DNA of 54,006 nucleotides from Chitinispirillaceae bacterium (GTDB lineage Bacteria > Fibrobacterota > Chitinivibrionia > Chitinivibrionales > Chitinispirillaceae): NCBI GenBank assembly GCA_016929595.1, contig JAFGIN010000130.1, positions 1 through 54,006 of the forward strand, given 5' to 3'. Positions within the stretch are counted from its first letter, which is position 1. The number at the start of each line of letters is the position of its first letter. The translations under genes were made by a program, and so were the position numbers. Below the pieces are notes generated by a model. That model saw only the letters and a list, made by a program, of their open reading frames with translations, had not been told where the DNA came from and did not search any database. Positions 2,738 through 11,844 of the stretch are shown here, in pieces.

Positions 2738-4498
2738 TTATGCAGTTTGAAGCATAGAGTTCTTCTCTTCAACTGGTTCTTCACCGGATTGATCTTTGAT
2801 TTCATGTATGTACGGACCAAGATCCATATCATGATATCCCTTGCCGGGAGGTACTATGGGATACAATACTTCTTCCCGATCCGTAATAACCTCCAATATT
2901 GCCGGATCTGTCGCCTTCATAAAGTTTTCCAGAGCCTGTTGGAGCTCCTCTCTTTTGATTACACGACAGGCGTACCGAAACCCGCAAATTTTTGCGATTT
3001 TTGAAAAATCCACATCTGCATTTCGCTCTGTCGCGGAATGTCTTCCGCCATATGCTGCATCTTCGAGATTGCGCACCATGCCATCACTTCTGTTATTGAG
3101 CAAAAGCACCTTCACTGGCAAACCCAGGGTTCCAACAGTATGCAATTCTCCCAAATTCATGCGAAGACTGCCATCTCCATCGATGCACAGCACCGTCGCT
3201 CTGGGATTGGCAATACAGGCACCAACAGCATTGGGTAGACCGAATCCCATCGTTCCAAAACTTCCGGAAGTCAAAAATCGCCGAGGATGATGCATTTTGA
3301 GATACTGCGCCGCCAGAAGCTGGTGATTACCAACGCCGGTGGTAACAATAACATTGTGGGGTAACATCTTGGAAAGAAGATGCAGCACTTCAGCCTGCTG
3401 TATCACTGCAGACTCACGGTTATAGTCGAGCTTCCAGGAGCGTTTTATCAGCGAAGCTTCCATGCGCCACTTGGCAATGTCAAGGGCAATGCGCTGTTTT
3501 TCGCCATAATCGCAGAGATCATCAAGTATGATAGCACCATCACCAATCGCAGAGAAATCAGGCTTTCGCTCCAGGCGAATTTGCCTCACCTTTTCCGGAT
3601 TGATATCAATATATGCAACTTTCGCGTCAATGGCAAAACCTACTTTTTCAGCCACCCGATCATCCCAGCGAACACCAATGGCAAAAAAGAAATCGTTCCG
3701 TTGGATTATTGTATTCGCAGCGGGAGTCCCGAACATACCCAGAAGCCCCAGCGAAAGGGGATCGTTTTCGTTCAGAACGCCCTTGGCCATAAGCGTATTT
3801 ACCGATGGGATAGCAAACAGATCATTGAATCGCTTTATAGCTGCAGCACCGCGCTCACTGTTGAGTCCCCCACCCAAATACAACAGCGGGCGTCTCGCCG
3901 ATAGCATCAAATCAAAAAAACGAGCACATTGCTTGTCTGAGAGATGACGGGCATCTTCATACAATGCCTGAAAATCCTGCACCGGCTCATCTTTATAAGA
4001 ACATGTGTTTTGCTGCAAATCAATAGGGAAATCGATAACAACCGGTCCCGGTTTCCCGGACAAACTTAAATACCAGGAATCCTTGACAATATTTTCAATC
4101 TTATCGATGCTGTCAACAAGGACTACTTTTTTTGCTGTCGCTCCAAATATGCGGGAAACATCGATATGCTGAAAACTATCTGTTCCCAGTTTATGCTCGG
4201 GCACCTGACCGGCGATAACCAGCATAGGAATGCTGTCGGCAAAAGCATCAGCCACAGCTGTAAGTGTGTTAGTGATAGCCGGCCCTGATGTAACGACAGC
4301 TACTCCGACCGAATCACTGGATCGCGAATAGCCGCTAGCTCCAAATGTAGCTGACTGCTCATTCGACGTAACGATAATGTTCACACCCTGTTTTGCAAGT
4401 TCATCCATAACTGGCAATATTGCAGCTCCAGTATAACCGAAAACATGATGAACACCCAGATCACAGAGACTTCTTACCAGGATTTCAGAACCTCTCAT
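2738..4498 (-). CDS. ilvB: Acetolactate synthase-type ThDP enzyme (large subunit)
   Basis: A thiamine-diphosphate enzyme of the acetohydroxyacid synthase family, which condenses two 2-oxoacids with loss of CO2. The three-domain layout is visible. The N-terminal PYR domain has the activating Glu in NEQSATFGASGY (E47), the middle domain contains GVRWDDRV, and the C-terminal PP domain has the GDGS...LNN cofactor motif (about 441-469). Start choice: ATG at 4498 has GGAG seven bases upstream and gives the usual MRGSEIL opening, while an in-frame ATG at 4510 has no ribosome site. The normal GMVxQWQ motif reads GMVRNLED, so the Trp linked to 2-oxobutyrate preference is Leu. No small regulatory subunit (ilvN) is adjacent. 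The product could be a catabolic or pyruvate-preferring acetolactate synthase, or another member of the superfamily. Confidence 0.85.
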   Translation of the reverse strand: MRGSEILVRSLCDLGVHHVFGYTGAAILPVMDELAKQGVNIIVTSNEQSATFGASGYSRSSDSVGVAVVTSGPAITNTLTAVADAFADSIPMLVIAGQVPEHKLGTDSFQHIDVSRIFGATAKKVVLVDSIDKIENIVKDSWYLSLSGKPGPVVIDFPIDLQQNTCSYKDEPVQDFQALYEDARHLSDKQCARFFDLMLSARRPLLYLGGGLNSERGAAAIKRFNDLFAIPSVNTLMAKGVLNENDPLSLGLLGMFGTPAANTIIQRNDFFFAIGVRWDDRVAEKVGFAIDAKVAYIDINPEKVRQIRLERKPDFSAIGDGAIILDDLCDYGEKQRIALDIAKWRMEASLIKRSWKLDYNRESAVIQQAEVLHLLSKMLPHNVIVTTGVGNHQLLAAQYLKMHHPRRFLTSGSFGTMGFGLPNAVGACIANPRATVLCIDGDGSLRMNLGELHTVGTLGLPVKVLLLNNRSDGMVRNLEDAAYGGRHSATERNADVDFSKIAKICGFRYACRVIKREELQQALENFMKATDPAILEVITDREEVLYPIVPPGKGYHDMDLGPYIHEIKDQSGEEPVEEKNSMLQTA

Positions 4499-4769
4499 AT
4501 ACGACTCCATTATTCATTATAGATTAAACATACTACAGGTCTAATAATGACATTTAAGATTAAAGTATTCAAGTACTCACTTTAATACGTTTTAAAAATA
4601 TGTTTTAATACTGTAATCATGTCAAATGCTATTCTTTTATAACCCGCAGCCATTTAGTTAACATAAATAAAATGACCGATGTATTGAGATGTATGCCCAC
4701 TGACAAGCGCATTAAACGATAAGACGCTCAAAATTCGCAGACCATTCCGGTAACGGGTAGCGATAGCAT

Positions 4770-5108
4770 TTACTCATTTGACATATATATCAACAGTTTC
4801 ACAAAGCCCGTCTTACTATTCATGCGAATTCCCATAATGTGCAAAAAAAAATACCGTTTGTTGCCGGAAAGATTGTCAATCCATCCGTAGTTCGCATCAT
4901 GTTTTGAGTCCAAATCGTTTATATATGGTTTTATATCCAACAAAGGAGTGTTATCAAATACATCAAGACCCGAAGTAAACACTTCATTGCCCACCACTTT
5001 TTTAAGCCGAACGATACTAAGACCGATGGGGTTTGGACGCGCCGGGGACCGGCTGGCAAACATAAGAATACTCTTTGAACATCCCCTTTTAACTGTATTC
5101 TTCACCAT
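4770..5108 (-). CDS. Truncated TrmO/TsaA-like tRNA methyltransferase
   Basis: The segment FASRSPARPNPIGLSIVRL followed by GLDVFDNTPLLDIKPYI is the hallmark core of TrmO (TsaA/YaeB), the SAM-dependent enzyme that N6-methylates t6A37 in tRNA. Only the second half of the domain is present. The first roughly 60-70 residues of the family, including the opening strand with IGVIRSP, are missing. The frame is open upstream for only 16 codons until a TGA, and that TGA is the stop codon of the ferredoxin/NifX-like gene above it. The two genes are therefore in the same frame, separated by one stop and 45 bases. The C-terminal tail beyond DIKPYI is unlike the family. Most likely a remnant or a piece of a former fusion, and activity is doubtful. 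Confidence 0.6.
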   Translation of the reverse strand: MVKNTVKRGCSKSILMFASRSPARPNPIGLSIVRLKKVVGNEVFTSGLDVFDNTPLLDIKPYINDLDSKHDANYGWIDNLSGNKRYFFLHIMGIRMNSKTGFVKLLIYMSNE

Positions 5109-5153
5109 GATCGCTTCTGTTCCGATTTTTTTATTAGGTTGTTTTAAGCACTC

Positions 5154-5720
5154 TCATACCAGGACACGTCCTTTCTTTTCCTCGCTACATTTTTCTTCCA
5201 TGATTTCGTTGATATTCTCCTTTAATATATCGACAGCTTGAGTTATAGTACGGTTACCATGTACTACTGCACACACAAACTTATTTTTTAGTCGTGATAT
5301 GTTCGGGCCAAATTTCCCACCAATTAAAACATCTACACTCTCCAACGCAGAAGCGGTTGCTCTTGCTTTCCCCGGATCACCATGAGTTTTCGATTCGTCT
5401 TCCTTATATTTTATATTTTCGCGCATCTCCCGATACTTCACCTCACCGTTCTCGTAAATCCATATGTGAAAATATTTCGACATACCGACATGGTTATCGG
5501 TCTTTATGTTTACCCCATCATCCGTACCGAATGCTACAAGTAACGAGCCTTTGACATTCATAATCGCTGATTGTGGACATATGGCAACACATGATTGGCA
5601 CTGCATACAATCACTCTGATTAACACTCGCAATACTGTTAAAAATTCCTATACTGTTGCTTGCACATTTTTCAATGCACAAACCACAACCCACACATTTA
5701 TTCTTACTTATATGAATCAC
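5154..5720 (-). CDS. 2[4Fe-4S] ferredoxin fused to NifX/NifB-type domain
   Basis: Residues 1-50 are a bacterial ferredoxin with two CxxCxxCxxxC clusters (C9, C12, C15, C19 and C38, C41, C44, C48-Pro). Residues 57-175 form a dinitrogenase iron-molybdenum cofactor biosynthesis (NifX/NifB C-terminal) domain, recognised by VAFGTDDG, NHVGMSKYFHIW, ALESVDVLIGGKFGPN and the closing helix. Such stand-alone proteins occur widely in anaerobes and probably bind or carry Fe-S or mixed-metal clusters in the cytoplasm. No nif genes are near, so a nitrogenase role should not be assumed. The start is GTG at 5720 with AAGGAG about eight bases upstream. It is followed in the same frame, after its TGA, by the truncated TrmO gene. 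Confidence 0.85.
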   Translation of the reverse strand: MIHISKNKCVGCGLCIEKCASNSIGIFNSIASVNQSDCMQCQSCVAICPQSAIMNVKGSLLVAFGTDDGVNIKTDNHVGMSKYFHIWIYENGEVKYREMRENIKYKEDESKTHGDPGKARATASALESVDVLIGGKFGPNISRLKNKFVCAVVHGNRTITQAVDILKENINEIMEEKCSEEKKGRVLV

Positions 5721-5823
5721 TTAGCAGCTCCTTATCCTTATTATTATTACTATCAACACCTATAATTCATTTGCTTTCGGTTCGAATTATTTCATCACTA
5801 TGTTGGGACCAGAACTCGACAGT

Positions 5824-6981
5824 TTAATCCAAAACGGCCACTCTTGTTTTAGTAAACCCATTGAATGTACTGGCGCTTGCACTTGTATATGCTCCCATGG
5901 AATTAAACATAATCAGATCACCTACGTTGAGAGAAGGTAACATGACATCTTCATAAACTACATCAATGGAATCACATGTCGGCCCAGCCAGCACCGACTT
6001 ATGCAACGGCCCGTTTTTTCGTTCAGTATAAAAGGGATATTCAGCATGATCGTATAATTTTCCGGAAAAAGATCCATAGAGCCCATCATCAAGATAATAC
6101 CACCAAATACCATCCCGAAGGGCCCGTCCCTTTACTCCAGTAACCAAAGACATTGCATTCGCGCAAATATATCGACCAGGTTCAGCAATGATGCGATAGT
6201 TTCTGAAATGGCGTTCAAGATATTCATTGATCGGTTGGCAATATTTATTTATTGAAGGTACTTTTTTCAGATACTTTACAGGAAAACCGCCACCTATATC
6301 TATTATGTCAAATGCCACTCCGTCACCGGCTGATGCCTGGCAAATATCACGACAGTATTGAAGTGCTTCGATGAATTTCTGGGGAGTATCATTTTGAGAA
6401 CCAACATGGAAACTCAATCCACTCACAACAAGCCCACGATTTCGTGCTTTTTTAACAAGAGAGTAAGCCTTGGCTGGCGATACGCCGTACTTGCGCGATA
6501 AATTAACAGGACAAGACGGGTTCTCTATTCTTAATCGAACCAACAACTCCACAGTATCTCTGTACGGCAAAAGCTTTACAATTTCATCATCGTTTTCTAC
6601 TATGAATAATTTGATACCGTATTCAAGCGCATCCCGTATTTCCATATCGTTCTTTATTGGATGTGTATGAATGCACCTCCGCGCATCAATGCCACATCTC
6701 CTGGCAATGACAGTTTCACCCGGAGTACTCAGATCAAACGAACACCCCTCATCAGCAAGAATCTGTATAATTTCTGGCGTGGCATTTGCTTTTACCGCAT
6801 AGAATAGCTCAACACCTGGAAGTGCGCTTTTCAGGTTACGGTAATTCTTTCTAATTGCTTTATGCGATAATAAGAGCAGTGGGGTTCCATATTGTGCAAC
6901 AAAGTTTTGTGCACGGGAAAATCGGATATTTTTGCGATTGTTCAGACTCTGACTGATCGAGACTGTTCTGGTTTGCTTCAT
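5824..6981 (-). CDS. Ornithine/lysine decarboxylase, PLP fold III
   Basis: A group IV (alanine-racemase fold) basic amino acid decarboxylase that makes putrescine or cadaverine from ornithine or lysine. The PLP-binding lysine is K64 in FYAVKANATP. HVGSQ near residue 200 and GGGFPV are the phosphate-binding segments, EPGR is present, and the catalytic cysteine is C336 in AGPTCDSIDV. Length (385) matches the bifunctional lysine/ornithine enzymes and eukaryote-type ODCs rather than the longer SpeA or diaminopimelate decarboxylases. Substrate choice between ornithine and lysine cannot be set from motifs alone. It lies on the same strand as its neighbours with about 100-base gaps, so a loose operon is possible. 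The start has no strong ribosome site. Confidence 0.85.
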   Translation of the reverse strand: MKQTRTVSISQSLNNRKNIRFSRAQNFVAQYGTPLLLLSHKAIRKNYRNLKSALPGVELFYAVKANATPEIIQILADEGCSFDLSTPGETVIARRCGIDARRCIHTHPIKNDMEIRDALEYGIKLFIVENDDEIVKLLPYRDTVELLVRLRIENPSCPVNLSRKYGVSPAKAYSLVKKARNRGLVVSGLSFHVGSQNDTPQKFIEALQYCRDICQASAGDGVAFDIIDIGGGFPVKYLKKVPSINKYCQPINEYLERHFRNYRIIAEPGRYICANAMSLVTGVKGRALRDGIWWYYLDDGLYGSFSGKLYDHAEYPFYTERKNGPLHKSVLAGPTCDSIDVVYEDVMLPSLNVGDLIMFNSMGAYTSASASTFNGFTKTRVAVLD

Positions 6982-7090: not shown

Positions 7091-8437
7091 TTACAACATG
7101 TTTGAATCAGCCTCTTCTGCAGCAAGCGCAATGGGCTCACTCCCTGGGTCTGGGGACAATTCGGGTTGCCCTGCGCACCTTAAAGTCGCAAGTTTTTCGG
7201 CTGTCCAATCAGACCTGATAGCAACCGTAAGCATATCAATGCTTTTTATCATCGACCTGCTATCGCCTATTATCTGCCCTCCAATTATGCGCTTGTTTCC
7301 TTTATTAAAAACAAGCTTGACAGTAAAAGGCTTTTTGTCAACCATCATTGAATGCTGATCATCGGAGCATCGTATAGCACTCACCGTTTCGATACCTTCT
7401 CTTTTAGCCAATTCCTCGGTTAAACCGGTACCAGCCATAGACTTATCAAAGAATTTTGTCGCAAAACCATTAATAAATGGAGGATACTCAATCCGTCTTC
7501 CAAGAATATTCTTTGCAACAATTCTACCTCCAATAACCGCGTTTGGTCTAAGTTGCCCAAGACCCGGTTTCCCGGTTACATAATTTGCAAATTCTATAAG
7601 GTCACCCGCAGCATATATATCAGGATCTGATGTCTGAAGATACTGGTTCACCCTGAGAGCTAGTTTACCGAGTTCAAGACCTGCGTTCTTTGCTATTTCT
7701 ATGCGTGGTCGAACTCCGGTCGAAACAATAACCATCTCAGCCTTGATTTTTTCACCCGAATCAAAAGCCACTTCTTCTATTGCACTATTGCCATTCAAGC
7801 TTTTTACTTTTGTATTCAACCTTAAATCAACGTTACGCTCTTTTATATACTTTTCGAGTTCACTTGTCATGTTTGCATCAAAAGCCCCGGGGAGTACATG
7901 TGGAAGCATTTCAACAAGCGAAACACGAACGCCTTTTTTTGCTATGAGATACGCAGTCTCGATACCTATAGCCCCTGCGCCGACAAGTACGCATTTTTTT
8001 ATTCTCTGCATATTCATACGATTCAAAATACGTAGTGCATCGCCGCTCTTTCTAAGGGTAAATACTCCATCAAGCCCTATACCGTCAATAGGAGGAGTGA
8101 TCGGTTGAGCACCCATGGCAAGCACAAGTTTATCATAAATTAACTCCAAACCATTGATACACTGGACTGTTTTTTTGCTTCTATCAAAGGATACCGCAGC
8201 ACTATTTACAATACGTATTCCTGCGCTTGTAAAAATATCGTCATCTTTATACGATGAATCGATAGAAATATCACCACAACTGATATAGGGAATCGCACAA
8301 CGGGTGAGAAGCCCTTGTTCATCTTCTTCACGTACTATTGTCACATCCAAAGATGGTTGTCTCTGTTTGAGCATCCTCGCCGCAAGCGCTCCCGCTCCGG
8401 AACAACCGATTATCACTATTTTAGTTTTTTCGTTCAT
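7091..8437 (-). CDS. FAD-dependent CoA-disulfide reductase / NADH oxidase-like enzyme
   Basis: A pyridine nucleotide-disulfide oxidoreductase of the single-cysteine branch (CoA-disulfide reductase, Nox, Npx, polysulfide reductase). The N-terminal FAD motif is IVIIGCSGAGALAA and the redox cysteine is C47 in LTRCAIPYISCGD. A second NAD-binding Rossmann motif is VLVGAGAIGIETA, the FAD-closing motif is IYAAGD, and a C-terminal dimerisation domain follows. There is no rhodanese extension. ATG at 8437 is preferred because GGAGGTGATA lies directly before it, while an upstream in-frame ATG at 8449 overlaps that ribosome site. Likely cytoplasmic and involved in thiol, sulfur or oxygen redox balance. 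The exact electron acceptor is not determined by sequence. Confidence 0.85.
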   Translation of the reverse strand: MNEKTKIVIIGCSGAGALAARMLKQRQPSLDVTIVREEDEQGLLTRCAIPYISCGDISIDSSYKDDDIFTSAGIRIVNSAAVSFDRSKKTVQCINGLELIYDKLVLAMGAQPITPPIDGIGLDGVFTLRKSGDALRILNRMNMQRIKKCVLVGAGAIGIETAYLIAKKGVRVSLVEMLPHVLPGAFDANMTSELEKYIKERNVDLRLNTKVKSLNGNSAIEEVAFDSGEKIKAEMVIVSTGVRPRIEIAKNAGLELGKLALRVNQYLQTSDPDIYAAGDLIEFANYVTGKPGLGQLRPNAVIGGRIVAKNILGRRIEYPPFINGFATKFFDKSMAGTGLTEELAKREGIETVSAIRCSDDQHSMMVDKKPFTVKLVFNKGNKRIIGGQIIGDSRSMIKSIDMLTVAIRSDWTAEKLATLRCAGQPELSPDPGSEPIALAAEEADSNML

Positions 8438-8531
8438 TATCACCTCCATAATATTTTTTACACAAATCTATATTCATTTTCAAAGTCAATTTCACAAAAA
8501 ATTATCATCATGACGGGAATAAGTCAGCAGC

Positions 8532-8840
8532 TCATTCTGTCAGATCATCTTTACCATCAAAACAAATAGCATGGTTGTTTTTTTTAGCATTCAGTTTTTG
8601 TATCTTGAATTTGGATATAATTACCAAATACAAAGATTTCCCTTTTACGATCAGTGCAAAGACACCACCAAATATTCCTGTTGCTCCGACACCAACCGGA
8701 CAACCAGCCTGTCCACAAAAAGGACACACAGAAAACGTTGCATATAGCCCCGCAAATCCAAACCACCACCCCAGGAACTTCAGAAGGTGAGAAAAAACAG
8801 AATGTTTTTTTTGTATTGGCCCACTTATCGCATTGTTCAT
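8532..8840 (-). CDS. Small CPFCGQ membrane protein
   Basis: A short protein with one or two hydrophobic segments, FLGWWFGFAGLYATF and VGATGIFGGVFALIV. Between them is a compact cysteine motif, CPFCGQAGCPVG, which could hold a metal or a disulfide at the membrane. The tail is basic and probably cytoplasmic. I choose the ATG at 8840 (MNNAISG); an in-frame GTG at 8855 gives five more residues. It lies about 90 bases upstream of the CoA-disulfide-reductase-like gene on the same strand, so a redox partnership is possible but unproven. I do not know a named family for it. Confidence 0.6.
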   Translation of the reverse strand: MNNAISGPIQKKHSVFSHLLKFLGWWFGFAGLYATFSVCPFCGQAGCPVGVGATGIFGGVFALIVKGKSLYLVIISKFKIQKLNAKKNNHAICFDGKDDLTE

Positions 8841-8865
8841 TAGATCTTCTCTCACTTACTATTAC

Positions 8866-9057: not shown

Positions 9058-9789
9058 TCAGGCTGATTTTGATAAAACAATAAATACCGCAAGCGCAACA
9101 CCACCCAGAAATGCAAGCATTGAATGCTTCTTTTGTTCCCCGATCGCTTCGGGCAGAAGGTGTGAAGCTGAAACGTAAATAAGTACACCCGCCATAAATC
9201 CCAGTATCAAACCCATCTTACTTGCCGATAGTTTTTCTATCAATGGGTAAGCAACGAAAGCTCCAAGCGGCGTGGTCAGGGAAGCAACAAGGAGTGCGTA
9301 AAACACAGCTGTTCTTTTTTTCAATCCAGAGTCCATAAAAAACAGATACGTAATCACTCCTTCAGCAAATTCATGCACAACCAGCCCTGTTGCTGAAAGA
9401 AAACCAGTCATAATACTCATCTTAAATGTTACAGCATAGATAATTCCATCTACAAAGGAATGTATTCCTATTCCTTCGGCTGCTACAATACCAAAAGCAA
9501 GATCTTTCTTACCAGTGTGATAACGGATGAATCTGTTAGAAAACAGCATAAAGAGAAATCCGCCTACGGCCATGAACCCTGCATAGGAATTTTTTGTTAA
9601 TGCCTGAGGCAACGCAAGCATAAGCGGGGTTGAAATCAATACGCCAGCGGCAAAACACATAAAATAGATCTTGGCTTTCTGCGCCCATTCACGATACCTG
9701 ACTATTGCCAGAATGCCTGCAGTATTTACCAGAACCGACAATATGGCAAATACTGCGACCCATAGAAACGTATGAGGATTAGTATGCAT
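9058..9789 (-). CDS. ZIP-family divalent metal transporter
   Basis: A multi-spanning inner-membrane protein of about 243 residues with seven to eight hydrophobic helices. The two ZIP signature helices that build the metal path are present: EGIGIHSFVDGI in the fourth and GLVVHEFAEGVI in the fifth. The variable loop between helices 3 and 4 (RFIRYHTGKKD) is short and has a single His. It likely imports zinc, iron or manganese. ATG at 9789 is favoured over a GTG three codons upstream because AAGGTGGAAGTG precedes it. No metalloregulator gene or operator is obvious next to it. About 110 bases separate it from the SLAC1-like gene upstream on the same strand. Confidence 0.88.
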   Translation of the reverse strand: MHTNPHTFLWVAVFAILSVLVNTAGILAIVRYREWAQKAKIYFMCFAAGVLISTPLMLALPQALTKNSYAGFMAVGGFLFMLFSNRFIRYHTGKKDLAFGIVAAEGIGIHSFVDGIIYAVTFKMSIMTGFLSATGLVVHEFAEGVITYLFFMDSGLKKRTAVFYALLVASLTTPLGAFVAYPLIEKLSASKMGLILGFMAGVLIYVSASHLLPEAIGEQKKHSMLAFLGGVALAVFIVLSKSA

Positions 9790-9914
9790 CACTTCCACCT
9801 TTTACGATAACACCTTTTAATACTGCGACTTTCCACAAACAAACAACAATTGATCCAATTTAAGAAACATGAAATACATTACACTCTTTTTAAATCGAAT
9901 TTTCTCCGTCCATC

Positions 9915-10895
9915 TCAGCTTTCCTCGACACAGATTTTTTTACGTACAATATTCACAATTGTAATAATGGAAAGCAGAACAACCGCTACTACAAGAAGCG
10001 ACAAATTGAAAAAAATCAAATTTCTATAAAAAACAGTGCCCGCAAAATGATACATTTGAATGGATGCCAATGTGATAGCTGCAAGCGGAAAGGAATATGC
10101 CCACCATGACAAGAAGAACTGAATCTTTAGAAAAATGTTTGCCCGATACAAAACAAGCATGAACGAAAAAAGAGAAGTGTAAAACAATATTCTTCCAAAA
10201 GGATCAAGGTGTCCAGTCAACTTCGACCAGGCAATAAACGCGATGGCCGGTGGTGCAAAAAGAATAAACAGCGTTGGAAGAAGTTTCTGAACGATAGGTT
10301 CGTGAAAAACCATTCGATAAAAAACGATAATAAACAACGCCAGCCAGAAAACCAAACCTATAGAAAAGAAAAACCAGGACAATTCGACAAAACCATGAGA
10401 CACACCTGCTATGGGAACAATAACAAAACCCACAATCGGTATAAACCACCCGGGGGTAAGATGCTCTATCTTGAAGTGCGTATGATTTATCCACGTTGAC
10501 ATGATAGCGAGAGATGCAACAAACTGAAGCAGTGTTCCCACAATCCAGAAATACTTCGAAACCAACATATTTCTCGAAAGAAAAACGACACTCAACACCA
10601 GCAGGATTTTTGCAACAAGAGGAAAAAAGTTTATTTTAACCGGGCTCTTTATTTCGTCAAGAACATCATCAAAAAACCAAATAGTCTTTGCAAGATAACA
10701 CAAGCTAACGACACCGAAAATCCCCAAAGTAATTATCAGTAATGATGTACTTCCAATAGAAGATTTCAAAAAAAGTTCTTCTGTTTTTTGTACTGCAAGT
10801 GTGAAACCCGCAAATCCAAGCGCAATAGCAAAAAACGTTATCGGGAAATTCTTTAACCTATTGTGTGTCTTACTCACAGAAAGCGTGTTATTCAT
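9915..10895 (-). CDS. SLAC1/TehA-family anion channel or transporter
   Basis: A ten-helix membrane protein of about 326 residues matching the tellurite-resistance/C4-dicarboxylate (TDT) family, which includes TehA and plant SLAC1. Recognition rests on the repeated helical-hairpin layout, the NFPITFFAIALGFAG opening and the conserved FLSWWAYSFPLAAITLAS segment late in the protein. Family members pass small anions such as chloride, nitrate, sulfite or malate. ATG at 10895 lies inside the end of the GroES-like gene in an ATGAATAA arrangement (8-base overlap), so it is probably translated by coupling. A longer frame start exists but would run through the upstream gene. It is last in an operon headed by a MarR regulator. 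Confidence 0.82.
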   Translation of the reverse strand: MNNTLSVSKTHNRLKNFPITFFAIALGFAGFTLAVQKTEELFLKSSIGSTSLLIITLGIFGVVSLCYLAKTIWFFDDVLDEIKSPVKINFFPLVAKILLVLSVVFLSRNMLVSKYFWIVGTLLQFVASLAIMSTWINHTHFKIEHLTPGWFIPIVGFVIVPIAGVSHGFVELSWFFFSIGLVFWLALFIIVFYRMVFHEPIVQKLLPTLFILFAPPAIAFIAWSKLTGHLDPFGRILFYTSLFSFMLVLYRANIFLKIQFFLSWWAYSFPLAAITLASIQMYHFAGTVFYRNLIFFNLSLLVVAVVLLSIITIVNIVRKKICVEES

Positions 10896-11088
10896 CCATG
10901 CTCTCCCTTGTATATTTTCGGTCTCCAACCAATACCTGATCGGTTGCATCAGCAGCAAATGACACAACGATACCTACACTTGGTTTCTCCTTTGCAGAAC
11001 CGGGAATAACCAGCCTACCGGCAGCTCTTTCCTCAGCCGCCGCAGGCTCAATCAACACATGCCCCTGAAGTGGTTGAATTTCTTTCAT
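10888..11088 (-). CDS. Short GroES-like (co-chaperonin 10) protein
   Basis: The 66 residues resemble the first two thirds of GroES: IQPLQGHVLIEPAAAEE matches the opening strand, GRLVIPGSAKEKPSVGIVV covers the mobile loop and its following strand, and VLVGD is the usual turn. The family normally continues about 30 more residues with a second strand pair. Here the frame ends right after VGDRKYTRESMDE. No GroEL gene is next to it. The start has a strong AAGGAGG seven bases upstream, and the end overlaps the SLAC1-like start by eight bases, so it is expressed and conserved in position rather than obviously dead. It could be an adapted mini-GroES domain or a truncated paralogue. Confidence 0.65.
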   Translation of the reverse strand: MKEIQPLQGHVLIEPAAAEERAAGRLVIPGSAKEKPSVGIVVSFAADATDQVLVGDRKYTRESMDE

Positions 11089-11104
11089 ACAGGTCCTCCT
11101 TGTT

Positions 11105-11197
11105 TTACGTTATCAGAGGTTCGTAGTTTAATACATATTCTTTCAAAAAAAGCAGTTCATCAGTCTGAATTTCTGGTATAAATTCTGTCTTGTTCAT
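11105..11197 (-). CDS. Predicted 30-residue peptide between marR and groES-like genes
   Basis: A short frame encoding MNKTEFIPEIQTDELLFLKE plus ten more residues, then TAA. Its ATG lies four bases after the MarR stop, with GAGGAA about nine bases upstream, and the next gene has its own strong ribosome site shortly after the peptide stop. The peptide is acidic and probably helical. Position and ribosome site argue for translation. Possible roles are a small structural protein, a leader peptide or a spacer. No homologue is recognised. Confidence 0.45.
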   Translation of the reverse strand: MNKTEFIPEIQTDELLFLKEYVLNYEPLIT

Positions 11198-11201
11198 ACT
11201 G

Positions 11202-11645
11202 CTATTCCTCATTAGGCTTTTGCTGAATAGAAAGAGACTTTCGAAGAATTCCAATGCCTTGTTTCACAATTTCAATATCCCCAGGCCCAATGGTACCAAG
11301 CAATCTCTTTTCACACTCAGTTTTTAGTTTTTCGATATCTCTTTTAATTCGTCCACCTTTTGTTGTCAGTGACACTTCAATTGCTCTTCTATCCTCAGGA
11401 TCTGGTTTTCTTTCAACGTAACCTTTTCGCAAAAGGCGTTCTACAATTCTGCTACATCGCGATGGCGATAGATTTAATTTATTCGCCAAATCATTACATG
11501 ACACCTTCTCCCCTGAATCCAATATATCAATAACGGCAAAATCTATCTGCGATATGTCTGCCTGTACCGACATGCCCTGTCGCTGAAGAAGACACTGCTG
11601 ACCAATATCAAGAATCGTATCGATTAATTCATTTTTGTTTTGCAC
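11202..11645 (-). CDS. MarR-family transcriptional regulator
   Basis: A 147-residue winged-helix repressor of the MarR/SlyA type. The DNA-binding part is clear: recognition helix in VSCNDLANKLNLSPSRCSRIVERLLRKGYVE (about 49-79) and wing with PDPEDRRAIEVSLTTKG. The flanking N- and C-terminal helices form the dimer interface. The start is GTG at 11645 with GGGGAGG just upstream. It heads an operon with a 30-residue peptide, a GroES-like protein and a SLAC1-like channel, so it probably controls that channel in response to a small ligand such as an anion or phenolic compound. A dyad at 11656-11680, directly upstream of its ribosome site, is a likely autoregulatory operator. Confidence 0.88.
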   Translation of the reverse strand: MQNKNELIDTILDIGQQCLLQRQGMSVQADISQIDFAVIDILDSGEKVSCNDLANKLNLSPSRCSRIVERLLRKGYVERKPDPEDRRAIEVSLTTKGGRIKRDIEKLKTECEKRLLGTIGPGDIEIVKQGIGILRKSLSIQQKPNEE

Positions 11646-11680: not shown

Positions 11681-11844
11681 TGCTCACAGCAACAATATAC
11701 ATGTATTTGTTTGCCTGGTCAATAAAAAAAAGGGCGTTTTTTTAACATCAGGAGTCAGTGCCAAAATTTCTGAGTAAACAAAAAGTATACTCCAGGGAGT
11801 AATATAAAACTCATTGTAATCACCCGTCAATAAAATCCAAGGAA

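Follow-up and report, generated by a model that had tools for sequence, protein, structure and literature searches.

The closest described counterparts of the locus reported here are the co-chaperonin GroES/Cpn10 (PF00166), the TehA/SLAC1 family (PF03595), which takes in plant SLAC1/SLAH proteins and TehA homologues, and the OhrR-type MarR thiol sensors. A literature search at the level of titles and abstracts, with thin coverage of subscription journals, found nothing similar to a pairing of GroES with SLAC1. In the Chitinispirillaceae bacterium studied here, relatives of all three are encoded side by side within a window of 54,006 nucleotides, the whole stretch of DNA that was analysed. We consider it probable that the locus is a MarR-controlled thiol-redox and anion operon in which a deletion extending to the leader of the SLAC1 gene has removed the C-terminal third of an accessory GroES.

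Organization of the Locus

Read directly from the sequence, the order on the minus strand is a MarR-family regulator (11202–11645; 147 residues, GTG start), a 30-residue open reading frame, MNKTEFIPEIQTDELLFLKEYVLNYEPLIT (11105–11197), recognized from the frame itself and its codon score, a truncated Cpn10/GroES-like protein of 66 residues (10888–11088), and a SLAC1/TDT-family anion channel or transporter of 326 residues (9915–10895). The gap between MarR and the 30-residue frame is 4 nt and that between the 30-residue frame and the short GroES is 16 nt, and the end of the latter overlaps the start of SLAC1 by 8 nt. Shine-Dalgarno-like runs precede all four starts (GGGGAGGT, GAGGA, AGGAGG, and AAGGGAG), the run of SLAC1 lying inside the tail region of the GroES frame. 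The short GroES is flanked by MarR, the 30-residue frame, SLAC1, and a ZIP gene, and groEL is not adjacent. Close packing with ribosome sites or overlaps had been claimed in the original prediction and is borne out, as are the three family identities, which are given by Pfam scores of 51.5 bits for MarR_2, 38.5 bits for Cpn10, and 149.3 bits for SLAC1. The MarR assignment is further supported by alignment and the SLAC1 assignment by a tree and by PDB relatives (SLAH3, SLAC1, and TehA).

MarR, the 30-residue frame, and the 66-residue frame all show gene-like codon usage. On a score that includes amino-acid composition and was trained on genes of the same window, the short GroES reaches 0.199, a value attained by no off-frame fragment of the same length, and the 30-residue frame reaches 0.118, which is matched by 1.4% of off-frame fragments; codon support is therefore strong for the former and less secure for the latter. 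An ATG frame of at least 30 codons with a Shine-Dalgarno-like motif arises in 0.4% of Markov sequences of the length of the 30-residue frame's region. No family match to this peptide was found in Pfam, NCBIfam, or PHROGs, and its candidacy as a remnant of a thioredoxin/glutaredoxin, thioredoxin, thioredoxin reductase, OsmC, or Trx_3 protein was rejected, no similarity rising above shuffles (lowest fraction 0.20). The codon score of SLAC1 lies under all training fragments of its length and over all off-frame ones, which would fit either recent acquisition or membrane-protein composition.

The GroES-like Protein Lacks Its C-Terminal Third

The Cpn10 match (cut-off 21.1 bits) places protein residues 4–50 on profile positions 2–48 of 93. 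Similarity stops near residue 57, just past a GDR motif, and is followed by nine unrelated residues, so that the C-terminal third that would complete the barrel is absent, as originally predicted. The codons of this nine-residue tail include the ribosome-binding run of SLAC1, AAATATACAAGGGAGAGC. The mobile-loop region, AAGRLVIPGSAKEKP, keeps the hydrophobic residues LVI, and its usual GG is GR. The frame has no internal stop and a strong Shine-Dalgarno run. A frame-shifted C terminus was looked for by eye, and the other frames hold no matching sequence.

The AlphaFold model of the short protein has a mean pLDDT of 46.3 and a pTM of 0.15, compared with 78.8 and 0.68 for a full-length relative modeled with the identical 15 sequences, the control being a canonical rather than an orphan GroES. 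Four of the six strands of the full-length model lie beyond the truncation point (after residue 58) and have no counterpart in the short form, which does not fold in the model; with an alignment as shallow as these 15 rows, a fold dependent on oligomerization may be missed. Two complete GroES genes (126.8 and 126.7 bits) are present elsewhere in the genome.

Relatives of the Truncated GroES

Searched with the short GroES, 97 of 100 relatives gave a match, the genome itself included, and no matching frame shorter than 91 residues stop to stop was found among these 100 apart from the window gene. No congener is listed among these relatives. A scan of 84,980 species genomes (one per species) returned 75 loci, all with longer GroES frames. 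A script found GroEL in the same locus in 72 of the 75; two of the others end at a contig edge, and the third (L105) was dismissed as a GroES without GroEL, a GroEL-like frame missed by the script being visible by eye.

A search across phyla at 1e-8, in which 4 of 391 genomes matched, the source genome included, yielded the nearest relatives. One of the other three (G621) is a canonical GroES with GroEL, and two (G735 and G670) are orphan GroES proteins encoded behind a glutaredoxin or thioredoxin/glutaredoxin gene. Matches occur in 6 of the 42 genomes searched in the phylum of G670, and all six have the order ArsR, thioredoxin/glutaredoxin, GroES, with GroES split over two contigs in one of them. 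In the orphan GroES of G670 and its relatives the roof insert is absent, as it is in the short GroES, and both carry an AAD[AT][ST]D-x-[VI]-x-x-GDR-like stretch with the same spacing. In the phylum of G735, 9 genomes gave no match at 1e-9, a limit to be read against the 1.5e-9 at which G735 itself had matched. The operon of ArsR, thioredoxin/glutaredoxin fusion, and orphan GroES is seen at L165 (4623–5811) and at L168–L172; two adenosine-deaminase-family genes come next in the two loci checked.

No plasmid relatives of the short GroES were found, and the full-length GroES of locus L213, described below, gave only low-identity plasmid hits, many of those listed being annotated groES. Viral contigs held no relatives of SLAC1 or of the short GroES, and a phage or viral origin was rejected on that basis.

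Distribution and Neighborhoods of SLAC1

The SLAC1 protein matches PF03595 over its whole length (profile positions 1–329 of 331). In its own phylum, the only one of 167 genomes with SLAC1 is the source genome itself. Under E-value limits that differ between genome sets, relatives occur in 6 of 391 cross-phylum genomes (own included), in 22 of 398 genomes of a second group, and in 13 of 365 genomes of a third, the centre loci of the last two being a Burkholderiales and a Draconibacterium record. In the phylum of G690, 1 of 74 genomes has SLAC1, with no other at 1e-50.

We examined 45 SLAC1 loci outside the window (27 + 5 + 13) for GroES, the 27 comprising 15 loci with flanks of ~7 kb, 7 with 1.5 kb, and 5 plasmid loci with 5 kb; some of the 45 are cut by contig ends. 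GroES lies directly upstream of SLAC1, on the same strand, in one of them (L213), and the other 44 have no nearby GroES. The L213 GroES is full-length (94 residues, Cpn10 84.4 bits) and stands in a run (2750–6929) of NifX, a CGGC protein, a thioredoxin-like protein (identified by reading alone, with no Pfam hit), a thioredoxin-reductase-like protein, thioredoxin/glutaredoxin, GroES, and SLAC1. The question of whether short GroES genes lie beside SLAC1/TehA genes elsewhere is answered in part: the adjacency recurs, with a full-length partner. Of the combination put forward as undescribed, the short form was seen only at this locus among the genomes searched, and the pairing of GroES with SLAC1 was not. 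On a rough estimate, with ~3000 genes per genome and one or two of them coding for GroES, chance alone would produce this adjacency in ~2–5% of 45-locus sets, and L213 is best taken as one suggestive recurrence rather than proof of a system.

Some other SLAC1 relatives also have redox genes beside them. The neighbors are ArsR and a thioredoxin-reductase-like enzyme in G690; ArsR, thioredoxin, and ArsP in G585; and DUF134, NifX, an FAD oxidoreductase, DsbB, and rhodanese on a plasmid. Of the ten best loci of the third group (L203–L212), most have an OsmC-like and/or a DUF134-like gene beside SLAC1, with a Pfam check on L211 only. Several loci have no redox partner of this kind, such as L186, where SLAC1 lies beside MoeA, and L121, with DUF134, NifX, and a thioesterase. 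In the tree, the window SLAC1 groups with ten third-group sequences of the OsmC/DUF134-associated lineage (100/98), and the SLAC1 of L213, 41% identical to it, is on another branch. Because the two SLAC1 proteins belong to different lineages, the two GroES–SLAC1 neighborhoods need not share ancestry.

Regulator and Downstream Genes

The MarR winged helix scores above its cut-off of 27 bits, and Cys18 and Cys111 are conserved in seven of eight aligned sequences, a pattern compatible with a thiol switch; a putative redox response would resemble that of OhrR. Upstream of the gene on the minus strand lies a promoter-like TTGACC-17-TATATT (11694–11722), weak alone, as the region holds 28 such sites against 23.3 expected. 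An imperfect 26-bp palindrome (11689–11714; 10 of 13 pairs) covers the −10 hexamer and is a candidate operator, a palindrome of that quality being found in 3.1% of Markov controls. MarR relatives occur in 7 of 50 genomes, and in the seven homologue loci fetched, one of which is a second copy in the genome itself, no SLAC1 or GroES lies within ~1.5 kb.

Past SLAC1, genes continue in the same direction, and the operon may extend into them. The next is a ZIP-family metal transporter (9058–9798, minus strand; Pfam Zip 76.8 bits), followed by a small cysteine-containing protein from a GTG-started frame (8532–8855, minus strand), an FAD pyridine-nucleotide disulfide oxidoreductase resembling CoA-disulfide reductase (7091–8449, minus strand; Pfam Pyr_redox_2 185.2 bits; best NCBIfam match CoA-disulfide reductase at 269.6 bits, under the cut-off of 578.8), a decarboxylase, a ferredoxin plus NifX-like (Nitro_FeMo-Co) protein (5154–5720, minus strand), a short TrmO-like frame, and a TPP enzyme. 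The small protein carries a CPFCGQAGCPVG motif and belongs to no family in Pfam, NCBIfam, PHROGs, or PADLOC. The TrmO-like frame (4770–5108) matches the N-terminal domain of TrmO at positions 62–116 only, lacking the beginning of that domain, and is a second truncated gene of the same array. No thioredoxin/glutaredoxin gene precedes the short GroES, and the window has no profile match to this family below E 1. A defence system was considered and rejected, PADLOC yielding only weak winged-helix and ferredoxin-type matches.

Origin and Possible Function of the Short GroES

In the explanation that we favor, the short GroES would be the remnant of the accessory GroES type that lacks GroEL and is found in ArsR–thioredoxin/glutaredoxin–GroES operons. 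A deletion would have fused GroES codon ~57 to the leader of the SLAC1 gene downstream, and residues 58–66 would be decoded from the SLAC1 ribosome-binding region because of that junction. Translation of the short frame probably continues and, by way of the stop/start overlap, may be coupled to that of SLAC1, but assembly of its product into a co-chaperonin ring is unlikely. The operon is probably repressed by its MarR, which would be released on thiol oxidation or on binding of a metal or electrophile; SLAC1 would then move a small anion, with the FAD disulfide reductase, ZIP, and ferredoxin-NifX proteins putatively acting in the same response. This origin is favored by the stretch and the missing roof insert shared with the orphan GroES proteins, the L213 run, the redox neighbors of SLAC1 relatives, the low AlphaFold scores, the two full GroES genes elsewhere, the SLAC1 Shine-Dalgarno run in the tail, and the presence of a second truncated gene. 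Against it stand the gene-like character of the short frame, the placement of the window SLAC1 off the L213 branch, and the 44 loci without GroES. Gene-like codon usage, the lack of an internal stop, and the strong Shine-Dalgarno run indicate that decay of the frame, if any, is recent.

The same intact frame, together with the retained LVI and the pairing in L213, could instead point to a functional protein, a small GroEL ligand that would use its mobile loop to tune how far SLAC1 or redox enzymes are served by the chaperonin in stress. We regard this as unlikely, given the GR in place of GG, the disordered model, and a tail unrelated to GroES; and because no second short form was found in the genomes searched and the model does not fold, a truncated accessory GroES is favored over a purpose-built mini-chaperonin. 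The idea of an undescribed mini-chaperonin system is weakened on these two counts and strengthened by the recurrence of GroES–SLAC1 in a redox run. The 8-nt overlap and the position of the SLAC1 Shine-Dalgarno run would also suit a frame that serves only as translational coupler or leader for SLAC1, with the 30-residue frame likewise a leader and both peptides idle, but coupling needs no conserved GroES sequence and the codon score of the 30-residue frame is coding-like, which makes this account distinctly improbable. Misassembly or misbinning in a draft of 6.6 Mb, with 224 contigs and 3.63% contamination, could have produced the truncation, and SLAC1 is found in no other genome of the phylum; however, the junction is clean, with a proper Shine-Dalgarno run and an overlapping start, and the neighboring frames are intact across it, so that an artefact is very improbable.

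More speculatively, a dedicated co-chaperonin family without its own GroEL, housed in thiol-redox and anion-transport operons, might recruit the housekeeping GroEL to stress-damaged clients, the window protein being its most reduced, mobile-loop-only, ring-free form; we give this proposal little credence. The orphan GroES proteins of redox operons do suggest that the chaperonin is linked to thiol repair via extra co-chaperonins. Should the short form prove active, it would reveal how small a part of GroES can still act on GroEL; should it be a relic, it is the trace of an accessory co-chaperonin that such a redox operon has lost.

Comparison with Known Systems

Compared with OhrR-type sensors, the window MarR shares the winged helix, and its conserved cysteines near the N terminus and near residue 111 may correspond to those of such sensors, but it reaches no NCBIfam equivalog cut-off. 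The SLAC1 protein, although a whole-length family member, does not reach the NCBIfam thresholds for tdt (134.6 against 237.25) and TehA (111.6 against 342). The short GroES resembles GroES/Cpn10 through the mobile-loop region, and differs in its missing C-terminal third, in having no groEL beside it, and in falling short of the NCBIfam GroES cut-offs. L213 shares with the window a GroES directly upstream of SLAC1 and a NifX gene nearby, whereas its GroES is full-length, no MarR is seen, and its SLAC1 belongs to another branch. The orphan GroES proteins, of ~97 residues, follow a thioredoxin/glutaredoxin gene and ArsR, whereas the window has 66 residues, MarR, and no thioredoxin/glutaredoxin gene; in both, the AAD.[ST]D....GDR-like stretch occurs without a roof insert, a regulator lies upstream, and redox genes are nearby.
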